DNA of 64,000 nt. Origin: Roseateles saccharophilus. Its GTDB lineage: Bacteria > Pseudomonadota > Gammaproteobacteria > Burkholderiales > Burkholderiaceae_C. The stretch is from NCBI RefSeq assembly GCF_004342485.1, contig NZ_SMBU01000012.1, positions 62,001 through 126,000 of the forward strand, in the 5' to 3' direction. The translations under genes and the position numbers were made by a program. This document shows positions 14,542-20,434 of the stretch, piece after piece. The notes beneath the pieces were generated by a model. That model ran no database searches. It was not told where the DNA came from and was given only the letters and a program-made list of their open reading frames with translations. Positions within the stretch are counted from its first letter, which is position 1, and each line of letters opens with the position of its first letter.

Positions 14542-14739
14542 ATGCTGCGCACGCTGACGATCACCACCGCGAAACGCCAGACCAACGAAGACCTGGCGTA
14601 TTGGCGCTCGCGCCCGGCTGCCGAGCGGCTGGCCGCGGTGGAGCAATTGCGCCTGCAGCACGAGGGCCTGTCGGAACATCCCGATGCTCAACCCCGACTT
14701 CAAAGAGTTTGCCGAGTTACTCAACGCACACCGCGTTGA
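14542..14739 (+). CDS. small partner protein of the nucleotidyltransferase (possible antitoxin)
   Basis: 65 residues starting ten bases after the mccA stop. The sequence (TNEDLAYWRSRPAAERLAAVEQLRLQHEG, then PRLQRVCRVTQRTPR) is mostly helical and resembles the small hypothetical proteins found directly upstream of DUF6036-type nucleotidyltransferases. Its 3' end overlaps the next gene by 56 bases in another frame, as toxin-antitoxin pairs often do. It could be the antitoxin or a co-factor of the enzyme; I cannot show which. Confidence 0.65.
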   Translation: MLRTLTITTAKRQTNEDLAYWRSRPAAERLAAVEQLRLQHEGLSEHPDAQPRLQRVCRVTQRTPR

Positions 14740-15127
14740 CTACCTGGTCGTCGGCGGCTATGCGCTGGCGGCCCACGGGCACCCGCGCTACACGGGCGAC
14801 ATCGACTTCTGGCTGGCCCGCAGCCCCGAGAACATCGGCCGGCTGCTCACCGTGCTGCAGGAGTTCGGCTTCGGATCGCTCAAGCTGCAGGCCGCCGACT
14901 TGGCGCCGGACTCGGTGATCCAGCTGGGTCAGCCGCCCCGCCGCATCGACCTGCTGATGGGCATCGATGGCGTCGAATTCGACGCCTGCTTCGCGCGTCG
15001 CGAGGTCGTCGCGATCGACGGCTTGCCCCTGAACTTCATCGGCCTTGACGACTTCAAGGCCAACAAGCGCGCGAGCGGTCGGCTCAAGGACCTGGCCGAC
15101 CTCGAAGCGCTCGACGACAAGGATTGA
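14684..15127 (+). CDS. nucleotidyltransferase-fold protein (DUF6036/AbiEii-like)
   Basis: 147 residues. The start of a minimal nucleotidyltransferase fold is plain: the helix-turn HRVDYLVVGGYALAAHG with the GGxAL loop, followed by RYTGDIDFWLAR, whose DxD (Asp-Ile-Asp) pair would bind metal, and a later acidic strand PPRRIDLLMGI. Proteins of this type act as toxins in type IV-like toxin-antitoxin pairs or as small nucleotide transferases. The upstream 65-residue overlapping ORF is the probable partner. The pair sits between mccA and the HMG-CoA lyase gene, four bases from the latter. Confidence 0.75.
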   Translation: MLNPDFKEFAELLNAHRVDYLVVGGYALAAHGHPRYTGDIDFWLARSPENIGRLLTVLQEFGFGSLKLQAADLAPDSVIQLGQPPRRIDLLMGIDGVEFDACFARREVVAIDGLPLNFIGLDDFKANKRASGRLKDLADLEALDDKD

Positions 15128-15131
15128 ACCC

Positions 15132-16040
15132 ATGGCACTCCCCACCCACGTCAAGATCCTCGACGTCGGCCCGCGCGACGGCCTGCAGAACGAGAAGGAG
15201 AACGTCTCCACCGAGCACAAGGCCCAACTCGTCGCGATGCTGCAGGACGCCGGCCTGAAGGAGATCGAGGTCACCAGCTTCGTCAGCCCGAAGTGGGTGC
15301 CGCAGATGGGCGACAACACGGCGGTGATGGCCGCGATCGCCCGGCGTGCCGATGTGAGGTATTCGGTGCTGGTGCCCAACACCAAGGGCCTGGAGCCGGC
15401 GCTGGCTGCCAAGCCCGACGAGATCCTCGTCTTTACGGCAGCCAGCGAAGCCTTCACGCAGAAGAACATCAACTGCTCCATCGCCGAGAGCCTGGAGCGC
15501 TTCGCGCCGGTCATCGAAGGCGCGCACGCGGCCGGCCTCAAGGTGCGTGCGGCGCTGTCGTGTGCGTTGGGCTGCCCCTACGAGGGCGAGATCACGGCCG
15601 ACCAGGTTGAGCGCGTCGTGAAGCCGCTGCGCGCGCTGGGCGTGGACGCCATCGACATCGCCGACACCATCGGCGTCGGCACGCCGCGCAAGGTGCAGGC
15701 GGCGATGGAGCGCGCGCTGAAGCACTTCCCGCTCGCGGAGGTGTCGGGCCATTTCCACGACACCTATGGCCAGGCGCTGACCAATATCTACGCCAGCCTG
15801 GAACTGGGCGTGCACAGCTTCCACGCCAGCGTCGCGGGCCTGGGCGGCTGCCCCTATGCGAAGGGTGCGACGGGCAATGTCGCGACCGAGGACGTGGTGT
15901 TCATGCTGAACGGCCTCGGCATCGCCACCGGCATCGACCTCGACAAGCTGGTGGATGCCGGCGCCTTCATCTCCGGCGTGCTGGGCCGCGCGCCGGTGTC
16001 GCGCGTCGCGCGCGCGATGCTGGCCAAGCGCGCGGGCTAG
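15132..16040 (+). CDS. mvaB: hydroxymethylglutaryl-CoA lyase
   Basis: 302 residues. TIM-barrel lyase that splits HMG-CoA to acetyl-CoA and acetoacetate, the last step of leucine degradation (also called liuE or hmgL). Motifs: KILDVGPRDGLQNEKE with the metal/base residues Arg-Asp, EVTSFVSPKWVPQMGD, GHFHDTYGQALTN (metal histidines) and the cysteine loop VAGLGGCPYAKGATGN with the conserved catalytic Cys. Four bases follow the nucleotidyltransferase stop. The gene's TAG stop lies in a CTAG that forms the left border of the interrupted inverted repeat described below. Confidence 0.95.
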   Translation: MALPTHVKILDVGPRDGLQNEKENVSTEHKAQLVAMLQDAGLKEIEVTSFVSPKWVPQMGDNTAVMAAIARRADVRYSVLVPNTKGLEPALAAKPDEILVFTAASEAFTQKNINCSIAESLERFAPVIEGAHAAGLKVRAALSCALGCPYEGEITADQVERVVKPLRALGVDAIDIADTIGVGTPRKVQAAMERALKHFPLAEVSGHFHDTYGQALTNIYASLELGVHSFHASVAGLGGCPYAKGATGNVATEDVVFMLNGLGIATGIDLDKLVDAGAFISGVLGRAPVSRVARAMLAKRAG

Positions 16041-16057
16041 AGGCCTGTTCACCCTAG
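16034..16057 (+). repeat. left arm, outer part, of an interrupted inverted repeat
   Basis: GGGCTAGAGGCCTGTTCACC and the CTAG that follows. It matches, in inverse orientation, the outer part of the right arm (18151-18173) with one extra A and two substitutions. The rest of the left arm continues at 18009, beyond the insertion sequence. The first CTAG holds the stop codon of the HMG-CoA lyase gene. Confidence 0.75.
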
Positions 16058-16080
16058 GCCGAACTTTGACCGACTGATCT

Positions 16081-16119
16081 GGCCGTAACCCAGCAGTGAT
16101 GCGGGTTACGGCCTTTTTT
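16081..16119 (+). terminator. rho-independent terminator inside the IS left end
   Basis: GGCCGTAACCC (16081-16091), an 11-base loop, then GGGTTACGGCC (16103-16113) form a perfect 11-bp stem followed directly by six T. It would stop read-through from the leucine operon into the transposase gene, a common protection device of insertion sequences. Confidence 0.88.
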
Positions 16120-16194
16120 GGGGCCGGGTTTGTACCCATGTAAATAGGCCATTGTTGGCTTGATTTGCGCAGTGCATCGCCTATACATGAAGCC

Positions 16195-17934
16195 ATGTAC
16201 ATCGAGTCTGTCCCCAACCGCGACTCTCCCCCCGCGATCCTGCTGCGCGAGTCCTATCGCGAAGACGGCAAGGTCCGCAAGCGCACCCTGGCCAATCTGT
16301 CGTGCCTGCCCACCGAGGTGATCGAGGGCCTGAAGCTGCTACTGCGCGGCGGGGTCGCCGTGCCCAGCGCCGAGGCGGTCTTCAGCGTCGAGCGCAGCCT
16401 GCCTCACGGCCACGTGGCCGCGGTGCTGGGCTGCGCGCGTGGCGCCGGGGCCGCCAGCTGGTTCGCCTCGGCCCCCAAGGAGCTTCAGCCGCTGCTGCTG
16501 GCGATGCTGGTCGCGCGCGTGATCGTGCCCGCCTCCAAGCTGGCCACGCATCGCGTGCTGCACGACGACACCGCCAGCTCCTCGCTCGGGCGGGTGCTCG
16601 GGGTGGGCCAGTGCAGTGCCGATGACTTGTACCGGGCGCTGGACTGGCTGCATGAGGCCCAGCCGGCGATCGAGCGCCGCCTGGCGCGCCAGCACCTGGT
16701 GGGCTCCACGCTCGTGCTGTACGACCTGACCTCGACCTGGCTGACGGGGCGCTGCTGCGAGCTGGCCGCGCGCGGCCACTCGCGCGATGGCAAGCGCGAC
16801 GATCCGCAGATCGTCTTCGGCCTGATCTGCACCGCTACGGGCTGCCCCGTCGCGGTGGAGGTGTTCCCCGGCAACACCGTCGATCCGGCCACCGTGGCCG
16901 CGCAGGTGAGCAAGCTGCGCGAGCGCTTCGGCATCGAGCACATCGTGTGGGCCGGCGACCGCGGCATGCTCACCTCGGCGCGCATCGAGCAAGTGCTCAA
17001 GCCCCAGGGCATGGATTGGGTGAGCTCTTTGCGCGCGCCGCAGATCGCGCAGCTGGCCGCCGAGCACGGGCCCTTGCAGCCCTCGCTGTTCGACGAGCGC
17101 AACCTGCTGGAGCTCACCAGCGAGCACTTCCCCGGCGAGCGCCTGGTGGTGTGCCGCAACCCGCTGCTGGCCGAAGAGCGCGCGCGCAAGCGCGGCGAGC
17201 TGCTCGCCGCCACCGAGGCCGATCTGGCCAAGATCGCCGCGGCCACGCGGCGCGAGCGCCAGCCGCTGCGCGGCGAGCAGGCGATCGCTCTGCGCGTGGG
17301 CCGCGTGATCGAGCGCTTTCACATGGCCAAGCACCTCGAGCTGTCGATCACCGACACGTCGCTGAGCTGGCAGCGCCGCCAGGAGGCCATCGCGCAGGAG
17401 GCCGCGCTCGACGGCCTGTACGTGATCCGCACCAGCGTGCCGGCCGCGCAGCTTGACGCCGCCGCGGCGGTAGCCGCCTACAAGAGCTTGTCGCATGTGG
17501 AGCGGGCGTTCCGCTCGATCAAGACGGTGGACCTGCACGTGCGCCCGGTCTTCCACTACAACGCCCAGCGCGTGCGCTCGCACGTGTTCCTGTGCATGCT
17601 GGCCTACTACGTCGAATGGCACATGCGGGCACGGCTCAAGCCCATGCTCTTCGACGACGAGCACCTCGACGAGGCCAGCGCCAGCCGCGCCTCGCCCGTG
17701 CTCAAGGCGGTCCGCTCCGAGCAGGCCAAGGCCAAGGACGCGAGCAAGACGGCCGATGACGGGCTGCCGCTGCACAGCTTCAGGACGCTGCTGCAGGACC
17801 TCGCCACGCTGGCATACAACGTCACCCACACCGCACTCAACCCCGAGGCCAAGATCGTCCTCACCACGCGGCCCACACCTGTGCAGGCCAAGGCCTTCGA
17901 GTTGCTCGGCCTGAACCCGGCCTGTACCCAGTAG
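16195..17934 (+). CDS. IS1634-family (DDE, IS4-superfamily) transposase
   Basis: 579 residues from ATG 16195 (MYIESVPNRDSPPAILL), full length for the family. DDE signature: first Asp in TLVLYDLTSTWLTG, second in VWAGDRGMLTSARIE, Glu in the YKSLSHVERAFRSIK segment near residue 435, which fits the Y-x2-R-x3-E-x6-K style of IS4-like enzymes. A possible promoter TTGATT-N16-TATACA lies at 16160-16187, which would give a very short leader. No frameshift or stop is present, so the element may still be active. Its GC content is like that of the host genes. Confidence 0.92.
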   Translation: MYIESVPNRDSPPAILLRESYREDGKVRKRTLANLSCLPTEVIEGLKLLLRGGVAVPSAEAVFSVERSLPHGHVAAVLGCARGAGAASWFASAPKELQPLLLAMLVARVIVPASKLATHRVLHDDTASSSLGRVLGVGQCSADDLYRALDWLHEAQPAIERRLARQHLVGSTLVLYDLTSTWLTGRCCELAARGHSRDGKRDDPQIVFGLICTATGCPVAVEVFPGNTVDPATVAAQVSKLRERFGIEHIVWAGDRGMLTSARIEQVLKPQGMDWVSSLRAPQIAQLAAEHGPLQPSLFDERNLLELTSEHFPGERLVVCRNPLLAEERARKRGELLAATEADLAKIAAATRRERQPLRGEQAIALRVGRVIERFHMAKHLELSITDTSLSWQRRQEAIAQEAALDGLYVIRTSVPAAQLDAAAAVAAYKSLSHVERAFRSIKTVDLHVRPVFHYNAQRVRSHVFLCMLAYYVEWHMRARLKPMLFDDEHLDEASASRASPVLKAVRSEQAKAKDASKTADDGLPLHSFRTLLQDLATLAYNVTHTALNPEAKIVLTTRPTPVQAKAFELLGLNPACTQ

Positions 17935-18004
17935 CTGCACACCCCGCGAACGCAAAGTTCAAGCGGGGCGCCGACTTACGTTCGCAGAGGCGCCAAAGTT
18001 CGGA

Positions 18005-18042
18005 CTAGGGCAGCAGGTCGCGTTGTGACCAGAAAGCCCGCG
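18005..18042 (+). repeat. left arm, inner part, of the interrupted inverted repeat
   Basis: Continues the left arm after the insertion sequence. GGCAGCAGGTCGCG (18009-18022) pairs with 18137-18150 of the right arm (one mismatch), and the 21 bases at 18022-18042 (containing TTGTGACCAGAAAGCCCG) pair perfectly with 18099-18119. The right arm has 18 extra bases between these two blocks. Confidence 0.8.
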
Positions 18043-18098
18043 AGCAAGGCGCAAGCCGGAGCCGGGCTGGCTGCCCGGCGAGGATTTGCAACGCCGCG

Positions 18099-18173
18099 CG
18101 CGGGCTTTCTGGTCACAACCCGAAGGGAAGGCCATTCGCGACCTACTGCCGTAGGGGGAACAGGCCCTAGCCC
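18099..18173 (-). repeat. right arm of the interrupted inverted repeat
   Basis: Read on the minus strand it starts GGGCTAGGGCCTGTTCCCCC and ends in the 21-base block shared with 18022-18042. It includes the TAG stop of the BlaR1-like gene (18169-18167). Between the arms is a 56-base loop (18043-18098) with a short GCCGGGCTGGCTGCCCGGC hairpin. Without the insertion sequence the unit would be about 175 bases and flanked by CTAG on both sides, like a MITE or a bidirectional terminator. Confidence 0.78.
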
Positions 18174-20434
18174 AACCGGTCCAGCGCCGTCTCCAGCTGG
18201 CCACGCTCGAACTCGCCCAGGCCGCGGCCGGCGCGGCGCAGGCGCTCGGTCAGGCCGGCGCCGGCAGCCGGTAACTCGGCCAGCTTGCCGGCCACGCGCA
18301 GCAGCACCTGCAGGCGGTCGAAGCCGGCGTCCATGCCCTCGGCCGCGGCGATGACCTGCTCCAGGCCGGCCGCCGGCAGCGTCGCGCGATCCAGCAGCGC
18401 GATCAGGGCCTCGCGCTTGTCGAAGTCGCCGTGGATGCCGGCGGCGACGCGGGCGTAGGCCTGCACCAGCTCGGCCTCGTCGCCGTGCAGCTGCCGGGCC
18501 ACGGCGTCCAGCGCCTCGCGCTTGTCGAAGTCGCCCTGCAGCTTGTCGGCAGCCTGCAGCGCGCCGCGCAGCAGGGCCGGCTCGGGCGTGGCGGCCACCT
18601 GGGTTTCGATGGTCGAGCGCAGGTCGAAGTCGCCGCTGATGCGGCCCAGCGCCTGCTGCCAGGCCTCGACGACGGCGGGCGCCATCGACAGCCGCGGCGC
18701 CAGTGCGCCGAGCGTCTCGCGGCGATCGAAGTCGCCGTCGATGCCGGCGGCGGCCTGCAGCCAGGCGAGCTGCTGGGCATCGGCCAACGGCAGCCGGGCG
18801 ATGGCGCTCAACGCCTCGCGCCGCTCGAAGCTGCCGCCGACGCGCTGTGCCAGTGCAATGAGGCGCTCCAGCGTTGCGGCGTCCAGCGGCTCGCCGAGCT
18901 TGAGGACGGCCTCGATGCGCTGGCGGCGCGGATAGTCGTCCTGCGCGGCCTCGAGGTCGGCCAGCACGGCCGGCATGCCGCCCTTGGCGAACAGCTTGCG
19001 CGCCCGCACCAGCGGGTCGGTCAGCTGCTCGGACATGCGGCGCACGGCCTGGCCCCACCACCGGTGCGCGGCCTCGTCCATGGGCCGGCTCACGCGGCCG
19101 ACGCGGTAGTCGCGCTCGATGCGCCCGTCGGCCGTGGACTTGAGCGACATCTCGCGCGTCTGCCCGCCGCCGCGCTCGCGCACGACGAGGCGGCCGCTCA
19201 GCGTCTGGACATCGTCCTCGGCCTCGTTGAAGCCGACCTGCCCATCCAGCATCACGGAGAAGCTGCCGCCCGGGTAGCGGCTGACGATGCGCGTGCCGGC
19301 CGAGAAGAAGCCCGGCTCGGCGACATCGCCCAGGTTGAAGCGCTCCAGCAGCTCGCGCGCATCGGTGCGGCTGACGACGACGGCGGGCAGCGCGACCAGC
19401 ACCGCGAGCATGGCCGCGAGCAGCCCCCAGCGCAGCGCGCGGCGCTCGCGCGGCGCGGCCTCGTCCGCCTCGGGCCTGAGCAGGCGGCGCACGCGGGCCA
19501 GCAAGGGCGAGCCGCTGCCCGCCGCGCCGCAGGCCAGGGCCGGGCCGGCGCGGCCGCCCTGGGTCCGCAGGGCCTCGGCACAGCGCAGCAGGCTTTGCGC
19601 CAGGGCCAGGCGCTGGCCCGCGGGCGCGGCGGCTGCGGCGTCGCAGGCCAACTCGGCCAGCAGGGCCAGGCGCCGCAGCGCCAGCCGGTTCAGCAGCTGC
19701 GGCCACAGCAGCGCCGCGACGGCGGCGGCGAGCAGGCGCCAGGCCGGGTCGTGCCGGCGCAGGTGCGCCAGCTCGTGGCCCAGCACCGCGCGGGCCTCGT
19801 CGTCGGGCAGGTCCAGGCACCAGGCCGGCAGGCACAGCGCCCGGCCGGGCGCGAGCAACGGGCTGGCCCAGCCGGCACGGGCGTGGCGCAGAGCCGGCAG
19901 GGGCACGCGCATCGTGGCCGCCAGCCGCGCCGCGAGGCGCTGCCAGCGCGGGTCGGCCAACTCGGGCAGGCGGCCCACCGCACGGCGCAGCCAGGCCCAT
20001 TGCAGCATCAGGCCGGCCAGCATCAGCAGCGCGCCGGCCAGCCACAGCGCGACGAAGCCGAGAGCGGCATCGTGGGCCTGCGGCGCGATGCGCGCCGTGA
20101 TCGGCAGCCCGCCGAGCCGGGCACTGGGGCTGAGGCTGGCCGCGGCCGGTACCCCGACGACGGCAGGGCGGGCGCTGGCCACCAGCACCGGGGCCGGCGC
20201 AGCGAGGCGGGGCCGCGCGGTATCGGCCGGCGGCGCGCCCGCCGGCAGGGTGGGCAGCAGAGGCAGGCAGGCGCTGACCAGTCCACCGAGCAGGGCCAGG
20301 CGCCACAGCGCCTCCTGCGTCCGCATCCCCAGGCGGCCCAGCAGGCCGGCGCGCTCGGCCGCCCACAGGCCGGCGATCAGCAGGCTGCTGTGCAGCAGAT
20401 AGCTGCACAGCCAGGTCAGCAGCGCATCAGTCAT
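18167..20434 (-). CDS. BlaR1-like M56 membrane metallopeptidase with C-terminal repeats
   Basis: 755 residues. N-terminal transmembrane helices (about 8-28, 42-62, 124-150) and the zinc-protease motif HELAHLRRH at 220-228 identify the BlaR1/MecR1 peptidase family (M56); another helix follows near 335-355. Instead of a penicillin-binding sensor the C-terminus has six copies of a 33-37-residue helical unit (about 526-720) with the core G-D/S-F-D/E-x-R-E-x-L, for example HGDFDKREALIAL. The protein presumably senses a signal and cleaves the BlaI-like repressor encoded eight bases (overlapping) upstream. The ligand is not evident; no beta-lactamase lies nearby. Confidence 0.85.
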   Translation of the reverse strand: MTDALLTWLCSYLLHSSLLIAGLWAAERAGLLGRLGMRTQEALWRLALLGGLVSACLPLLPTLPAGAPPADTARPRLAAPAPVLVASARPAVVGVPAAASLSPSARLGGLPITARIAPQAHDAALGFVALWLAGALLMLAGLMLQWAWLRRAVGRLPELADPRWQRLAARLAATMRVPLPALRHARAGWASPLLAPGRALCLPAWCLDLPDDEARAVLGHELAHLRRHDPAWRLLAAAVAALLWPQLLNRLALRRLALLAELACDAAAAAPAGQRLALAQSLLRCAEALRTQGGRAGPALACGAAGSGSPLLARVRRLLRPEADEAAPRERRALRWGLLAAMLAVLVALPAVVVSRTDARELLERFNLGDVAEPGFFSAGTRIVSRYPGGSFSVMLDGQVGFNEAEDDVQTLSGRLVVRERGGGQTREMSLKSTADGRIERDYRVGRVSRPMDEAAHRWWGQAVRRMSEQLTDPLVRARKLFAKGGMPAVLADLEAAQDDYPRRQRIEAVLKLGEPLDAATLERLIALAQRVGGSFERREALSAIARLPLADAQQLAWLQAAAGIDGDFDRRETLGALAPRLSMAPAVVEAWQQALGRISGDFDLRSTIETQVAATPEPALLRGALQAADKLQGDFDKREALDAVARQLHGDEAELVQAYARVAAGIHGDFDKREALIALLDRATLPAAGLEQVIAAAEGMDAGFDRLQVLLRVAGKLAELPAAGAGLTERLRRAGRGLGEFERGQLETALDRLG

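Follow-up and report, generated by a model that had tools for sequence, protein, structure and literature searches.

A palindromic repeat between convergent genes of Roseateles saccharophilus, interrupted by an insertion sequence, and its relatives in Burkholderiales

The locus and the rebuilt palindrome

The window analyzed here is a stretch of 64,000 nucleotides from Roseateles saccharophilus (assembly GCF_004342485.1, contig NZ_SMBU01000012.1, positions 62,001 to 126,000), in which an hmgL-like lyase gene and a gene for an M56-family peptidase converge on a palindromic element that is itself interrupted by an insertion sequence (IS) of the IS1634 family (Table 1). We read the sequence from 15500 to 18700 directly. 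Both gene ends agree with those of relatives: the proteins of relatives align with the hmgL product up to its last or next-to-last residue and then stop, and seven relatives align to within three residues or fewer of the end of the M56 product. A preliminary description, made from the letters alone, had proposed that the insertion splits a long palindrome, and its coordinates, including those of the four CTAG tetranucleotides in Table 1, proved to be correct. Deleting 16058-18008, which comprises the IS and one CTAG, rebuilds an inverted repeat that aligns from CTAG to CTAG, with three substitutions in the outer arm, one extra A, an 18-base gap, and a perfect 21-base inner arm. A chance palindrome was considered and is ruled out by the score of the 38-base outer arm against its partner, which is 48, while the best of 1000 shuffles reached 24. 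The rebuilt palindrome has a very stable fold, and CTAG is scarce in the window, with 18 occurrences observed against 63.6 expected.

Two details differ from what had been described. With the IS taken out, the unit runs from G16040 to C18167 and measures 177 bp, so that the earlier size of about 175 bases was slightly off. The 18-base gap is present, but it is what is left of a second hairpin: in an alignment with the closest full-length sister copy (L072, 267 bp), the window copy lacks 90 bp, which is essentially hairpin 2.

Table 1. Features of the interrupted palindrome and the two genes that converge on it (window positions).
Feature	Position	Strand	Evidence or remark
hmgL-like lyase gene	15135..16040	+	TAG stop 16038-16040; PF00682, 192 bits
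TA, left target copy, within CTAG 16037-16040	16038..16039		TA duplication signal of GGGCC-end copies; empty-site join
Left outer arm of palindromic element, first part (GAGGCCTGTTCACCCTAG)	16040..16057	+	
CTAG, left copy of IS1634 target	16054..16057		
IS1634-family insertion sequence; terminal repeat CCGAACTTTG	16058..18004 (16059-18003 with the imperfect 6-mer as target duplication)	+	
IS1634-family transposase, 589 aa from first listed start (TTG)	16165..17934	+	NF033559, 306.6 bits, cut-off 100; PF01609
CTAG, right copy of IS1634 target	18005..18008		
Left outer arm of palindromic element, second part	18009..18021	+	
Hairpin 1, perfect 21-bp arms 18022-18042 / 18099-18119	18022..18119	+	
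Conserved hairpin module (covariance model R1), 85.2 bits	18032..18108	+	Same as C12:80032-80108
Remnant of deleted hairpin 2 (~90 bp lost)	18120..18137	+	Alignment to full-length sister copy L072
Right outer arm; end GGGCCTGTTCCCCCTACGG on reverse strand	18138..18167	+	
TA, right target copy, within CTAG 18167-18170	18168..18169		
M56-family peptidase (BlaR1-type) gene, convergent with hmgL	18167..20434	-	TAG stop in CTAG 18167-18170; PF05569, 54.6 bits

The IS1634-like identity of the interrupting element is borne out by its transposase, and it is flanked by CTAG copies, as expected if it was inserted at CTAG. Its target duplication can be taken as 4 bp and exact (CTAG) or as 6 bp with one mismatch (CCTAGG/ACTAGG), and the rejoined sequence is the same either way. 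Members of the IS1634 family make target duplications of 5-6 bp. A second copy of this IS in the same genome is 92% identical, with its left end beyond a contig edge, and a third match is a short fragment of 74% identity. Going by the part of PMC3281130 that treats it, the IS1634-family element ISPfe2 resembles the window IS in its match to the transposase model and in size (1884 bp versus about 1947 bp), while its target duplication of 6 bp differs from the CTAG, or the CCTAGG/ACTAGG with one mismatch, in the window. The insertion, a single event, fits with repeats of this kind being hit by further elements.

A dispersed family of palindromic elements

With 18009-18173 as query, there were 47 matches at E<=10 in the same genome, of which one is 96% identical over 127 bases and four are 76-82% identical over 90-122 bases, while about eleven share little beyond the central 50 bases. 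When neighbouring copies were folded, they fell into two size classes, one of about 160-170 bp, in which an outer stem encloses a single hairpin, and one of about 262-272 bp with two hairpins and an outer stem in the shape of a Y (hereafter the Y class, with full-length copies of about 265 bp). Across the family, the palindromic elements are mostly about 160-275 bp long, carry terminal inverted repeats, and contain no transposase gene. A covariance model of the hairpin module gave 32 hits at E<=0.001 in the R. saccharophilus genome, a count that can include both modules of a Y copy and in one case takes in both strands of a single site. The same model had hits in 41 of 60 genomes (R. saccharophilus included), namely 19 of 20 in the genus (again with R. 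saccharophilus), 13 of 16 others of the family, and 9 of 24 others of the order, although weak hits in distant families may be chance matches. Of the 20 genomes of the genus, the sole one with no module hit, G011, has both RAYT (REP-associated tyrosine transposase) and integron integrase genes.

A pattern scan of named genomes found at least 116 stretches. Among the 80 listed, the carriers are Pelomonas, Roseateles, Rubrivivax, Ideonella, Rhizobacter, Aquabacterium, Acidovorax, Variovorax, Polaromonas, and Giesbergeria, along with an ‘Alcaligenaceae bacterium’, Comamonadaceae bacteria, and bins named Burkholderiaceae, Burkholderiales, Betaproteobacteria, Proteobacteria, or Pseudomonadota. Five of 72,556 plasmid records have partial matches to a copy of the S class (defined below by its ends), and a Y copy matched nothing in these plasmid records or in phages. 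We did not find the family described in open-access papers. Mattes et al. reportedly described a miniature inverted-repeat transposable element (MITE) in Polaromonas JS666 in 2008, and this could be the same family. Two arrangements of copies stand apart: in L009 (R. saccharophilus, C23 near 58299), another long hairpin breaks up the inner part of the module, perhaps as one element nested in another, and in L124:5749-6071, from the metagenome-assembled genome (MAG) SSC6, two S copies lie end to end in tandem with apparently one TGA in common.

Ends, target duplications, and IS5-family elements

The ends of the copies fall into distinct types. In the end logo of the Y class (55 copies), YTA is followed by GGGCCTGTTMACR, and in that of the S class (27 copies), whose ends are GAAGSTGTGAACGA, CTSA is followed by GAAGSTGTGAAYGA. 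The flanks of these copies carry target duplications, which are TA for the Y class and TNA for the S class: the 2-bp flanks are identical in 25 of 42 copies with GGGCC ends, against 20.0 by permutation (p = 0.001), and the 3-bp flanks in 13 of 27 copies with GAAG (S) ends, against 6.3 (p = 0.0005). In a wider set that includes GGGCC ends, the flanking 3-mers are identical in 24 of 79 copies, against 5.9. The window copy has TA, within CTAG, on both sides; the CTAG flanks that had been described stand for this copy but not as a general rule, as Y ends mostly follow YTA and S ends CTSA.

The Y ends also occur on IS5-family elements of relatives. Transposase genes of the IS5 family (NF033580) score above cut-off in 6 of 40 relatives' genomes, and in three of the 40 they belong to elements of about 823 bp with Y-class ends, one each in G003 and G002 (same genus) and seven in G023 (same family); the other loci fetched were without such ends. 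The G003 and G002 elements have GGGCCTGTTAACACTA at both ends, and the seven of G023 have GGGC[CG]TGTTAACAC or one change from it, all with TA flanks. Read together with the flank, these ends are CTA followed by GGGCCTGTTAACACTA or GGGCGTGTTAACAC, with one end changed in one element. The best Y copies match these ends at 16 of 16 bases, and one of them, L096, carries the 16 end bases of the IS5-family elements identically at both of its ends. For the other classes the likeness is smaller, being an 8-bp match only for S copies (L245) and a partial match for copies with GGCA ends (L248, and L254 in R. saccharophilus).

From their size, two reading frames, and TA target, the IS5-family elements of the relatives probably belong to the IS427 group. 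In the relevant part of PMC3281130, IS5/IS427 elements are 832-865 bp long with 2-bp repeats for all but one, and in that of PMC4133298, ISPsp10 is described with a TA duplication and a stop codon provided by its target. As far as these partial accounts of IS1248, ISPaes1, and ISPsp10 go (PMC3281130, PMC4133298), the IS427 group shares with our family the TA duplication, a stop codon recreated at the junction (in ISPsp10 and in two of 14 IS examined here), and, by way of the relatives' IS5-family elements, ends of the GGGCCTGTTAACACTA type. Unlike IS427 elements, the palindromes have no transposase and are 160-275 bp long, and the hairpin module was not in the 14 IS loci searched, where the best hit of the model had 15.5 bits and an E value of 0.064, none falling below 0.06.

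An autonomous version with a gene between two modules was looked for by clustering the proteins around modules, which yielded no recurrent mobilizer; two transposase clusters near modules adjoin the elements and are not inside them, one of the IS5 family (193.7 bits) and the other of IS110. A scan of loci for distant end pairs returned mostly chance pairs, and only its permutation part is used here. Apart from this, two MAGs have transposase elements next to copies. In SSC6 (L142, L177, L180), three copies of an IS5-family element were found, each precisely abutting the outer boundary of an S copy and showing 3-bp duplications of TGA or TCA (transposase model tested on one copy). In FR_11, at four loci (L151, L159, L160, L173), an element with an IS110-family (RNA-guided) transposase lies directly beside a Y copy, which occurs in both orientations, and the same flank begins right at the Y end (model tested on one).

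Many-copy intergenic palindromes are also a feature of repetitive extragenic palindromic (REP) and REPIN elements, as portrayed in parts of PMC3116915 and PMC2817692. Elements of that type are moved by RAYT, and RAYT genes are above cut-off in all 19 genomes of the genus searched. They are equally present in G011, the genome devoid of module hits, so that RAYT presence does not track module hits, and copy number does not follow RAYT. The size of the elements (160-275 bp), their TA or TNA duplications, and their IS5-type ends likewise differ from REP/REPIN, and we regard a RAYT-driven origin as highly improbable.

The junction in relatives and a proposed shared stop codon

Among 18 hmgL loci of the genus, an M56 gene is convergent and within reach in seven, and elsewhere no M56 end was found in the locus. 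In five of the seven (L036, L039, L041, L043, and L044), 62, 6, 12, 20, and 82 bases lie between the hmgL and M56 stops, and none of these five junctions contains the palindrome; those of L044 and L036 have other short hairpins. In the remaining two, the stops are 490 and 542 bases apart with another gene in between. The preliminary description had named a comparison of this junction as a check and had counted relatives without the palindrome against its own reading; five such relatives were found, and they are consistent with an insertion in the lineage of the window rather than a refutation.

If the element and one TA are removed from the window, the site reads GCGCGGGC-TAG-CCCAACCGG (GGC-TAG-CCC), so that hmgL ends in GGC TAG and the opposite gene also in GGC TAG, within the same CTAG. 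That CTAG supplies the TAG stop to both convergent genes, as had been described, holds in the window, and in the rejoined empty site both stops lie in a single CTAG. Because the element begins with G after TA, its insertion recreates TAG on both strands. Among 14 IS copies examined, two (L272, L284) give the neighbouring gene a TAG stop, and several of the others have no gene called at that end. Shared CTAG stops occur among relatives: in G014 (L047 near 2403), the TAG of hmgL lies in one CTAG with the TAG of a convergent non-M56 gene, and this locus, where the gene ending is a different one, is left out of the M56 count.

A probable nested series of insertions

We consider it very probable that the locus arose by nested insertion, in which a Y-class MITE entered a shared CTAG, lost its second hairpin, and was then hit by the IS1634-family element. 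Initially, the two convergent genes would have ended in one CTAG (hmgL in GGC TAG, and M56 in GGC TAG on the other strand). A Y-class MITE with IS5-like ends of the IS427 type would then have inserted at the TA of this CTAG and duplicated it, and the TA plus G at each element end would have regenerated TAG on both strands, leaving neither protein altered. The window copy would subsequently have lost hairpin 2 (about 90 bp), after which the IS would have entered a CTAG of the left arm. Landing on stop codons would keep such an insertion harmless. The MITE-like reading of the preliminary description is well supported, by the anatomy of the unit, the dispersed family, the match of class ends to the IS5-family elements of relatives, the class-wide target duplications, and the palindrome-free relatives, and movement by an IS5-family transposase seems probable.

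Several observations weigh against this reading. In the window copy, the right end matches the IS end at 13 of 16 bases and differs at three, and the left end has GAGGCC rather than GGGCC. The TA duplication signal is modest (25 versus 20.0) because TA is self-complementary, and copies with GGGCC ends have no flank signal at 3 or 4 bp (1 versus 0.9, and 0 versus 0.1). The R. saccharophilus genome yielded no IS with GGGCC ends: PF13340 had 0 hits there, and the two hits of NF033580 (44.6 and 27.7 bits) are both below cut-off. In the five relatives with a close junction, M56 ends in TGA and hmgL in TAG, TGA, or TAA, and none has the shared CTAG; the relatives compared at the junction are other species. 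Transposition of the family is deduced from sequence. Comparisons throughout are with species-level relatives and use approximate gene calling.

A palindrome between convergent genes, with a very stable fold and a hairpin kept by covariation (see below), could instead be a bidirectional transcription terminator, or a stabilizer of mRNA 3' ends, that was born in place and is not mobile. This would not account for the recurrence of the unit at many unrelated loci with target duplications and IS-like ends. By our own gene calls, only 25 of 140 elements lie between convergent genes, with 88 between tandem genes, 21 between divergent genes, and 6 unscored, and by eye no T run follows the hairpins. 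We therefore judge this alternative very unlikely, and retain the nested insertion. Upstream of hmgL, a 147-aa open reading frame (window 14684-15127, plus strand) that appears nucleotidyltransferase-like by eye lies between that gene and a biotin-dependent carboxylase-like gene (also by eye).

A conserved hairpin module

Copies with unrelated ends have in common a strongly covarying hairpin module. In a first alignment of 18 modules, made free of any model, both partners vary in 14 of 26 pairs without loss of pairing, and the number of cells with such double changes is 70, against 23.3 in shuffles (0 of 500 shuffles as high). A second alignment, drawn from 100 further loci, holds 150 of the 163 matches found, 136 of them distinct. 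Pairing holds in 93.9% of its cells, and double changes number 744, compared with 217 in shuffles, a count that leans towards the model to which the matches were fitted. Stem sequence varies among 87 distinct best matches, whereas conservation is 98-100% at the unpaired AA, A, GA, A, and AAC positions. On the model strand, the outer helix has 67 G.T cells and 18 A.C cells, and over all pairs of the model strand there are 91 and 24 distinct local contexts, respectively, with relatedness removed only partly from these counts. The excess of G.T over A.C on the model strand hints that this is the strand that folds. A search with Rfam gave no match in the window at gathering scores and no match to the module up to E 0.5 in eight loci of the same genome. 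One copy with GGCA ends in that genome has an S-adenosylhomocysteine riboswitch (L066:1300-1382, on C8; RF01057, 44.3 bits) some 75 bp away. Our working guess for the module is that it is carried as cargo in the form of a strand-specific, single-strand structure.

Stop codons and orientation

The elements prefer stop codons. Where a gene end faces an element, its stop is offset by -2 to +5 bases from the element end in 68 of 138 cases; in a slightly different count, 69 close stops comprise 34 TAG, 25 TGA, and 10 TAA, while stops more than 25 bases away are TGA in 27 of 35. For S-type ends, which in these stop and orientation counts are GAAG, GAGCTTGAG, or GAGGTTGAG ends, 43 of 51 elements sit at a stop codon against 24.8 (standard deviation 2.7) expected if all TNA sites in the gap are equally likely, with heuristic gene calls and many very short gaps. 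The two element samples behind these analyses share genomes and some elements, and were merged and de-duplicated for the orientation counts (7 of 194 duplicates removed); elements with weak palindromes or odd length were left out, so that 140 of 178 and 56 of 60 were kept.

S-type copies are, moreover, locked in orientation to the gene that ends at them. A stop at the head of a copy means that its module is antisense to that gene, and of the 51 S-type copies in the merged set, 35 have a stop at the head, none at the tail, one at both, and ten at neither, with the strand unassigned in five (p = 6e-11). Single-module copies with other ends have 9, 4, 3, and 16 in the same categories, with 1 unassigned. 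There is no orientation bias in 103 Y copies (head 12, tail 14, both 5, neither 48, unassigned 24). Of 32 single-module copies between tandem genes, 25 have their module antisense to the gene that runs into them (25 of 29 with a stop near). Since TGA is directional and TA is not, reading of the target could explain the locked orientation of the S class. Because Y copies hold two opposed modules, their lack of bias leaves room for the other explanation, that selection for an antisense module may lie behind the S orientation.

Such a fixed arrangement recalls the attC recombination sites of integrons, in which the folded strand is antisense to the gene and follows right after the stop codon. S-type modules too stand directly after stop codons in a fixed antisense orientation and keep their structure as the sequence changes, and G009 and G016, with 26 module hits each, have an integron integrase above cut-off. 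Across genomes the match breaks down, as an integrase is above cut-off in 12 of 31, among them neither the richest carriers, G005 and G012, nor G007 and G000, while G011 has the integrase and no module hit. Target duplications and IS-like ends are also foreign to attC, and an attC-like origin hence appears scarcely credible.

The family has more in common with known miniature elements. As far as portions of PMC10969869 and PMC5896051 describe them, the Correia/CREE and QMITE2 MITEs are likewise small, non-coding, and multicopy, with terminal repeats, target duplications, and a strong fold, and are hit by other IS. Here, in contrast to those accounts, one covarying core module occurs across several unrelated end types, and one class is orientation-locked to the upstream stop codon. 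TIMEs (Tn3-derived inverted-repeat miniature elements), in the section of PMC4133298 devoted to them, are also miniature and non-autonomous, with inverted repeats and stable RNA folds, and differ in having Tn3-type ends and in being usually single copy. A triplex-repeat system, so far as it is outlined in PMC4666352, was also considered and is a poor fit to the palindrome.

Implications

A broader scheme can be put forward tentatively, with a likelihood that we place somewhat short of even. In it, the copies would form a Burkholderiales superfamily of IS5-driven MITEs in which several unrelated transposon ends have acquired the same conserved single-strand hairpin module, antisense to the gene in the S class. 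Insertion of S elements would be aimed at TGA stops in a fixed orientation, either because the transposase reads the stop context or because an antisense hairpin is selected at the 3' ends of genes.

For the window itself, an odd palindrome finds a probable explanation as a series of insertions, and is tied to a repeat family that is common in Burkholderiales. With its pairing maintained by covariation in copies with unrelated ends, the module is a candidate for a new structured RNA or DNA-hairpin function. If the precise placement at stop codons and the fixed orientation of the S class reflect real targeting, they would illustrate a way for mobile elements to spread harmlessly among closely spaced genes.

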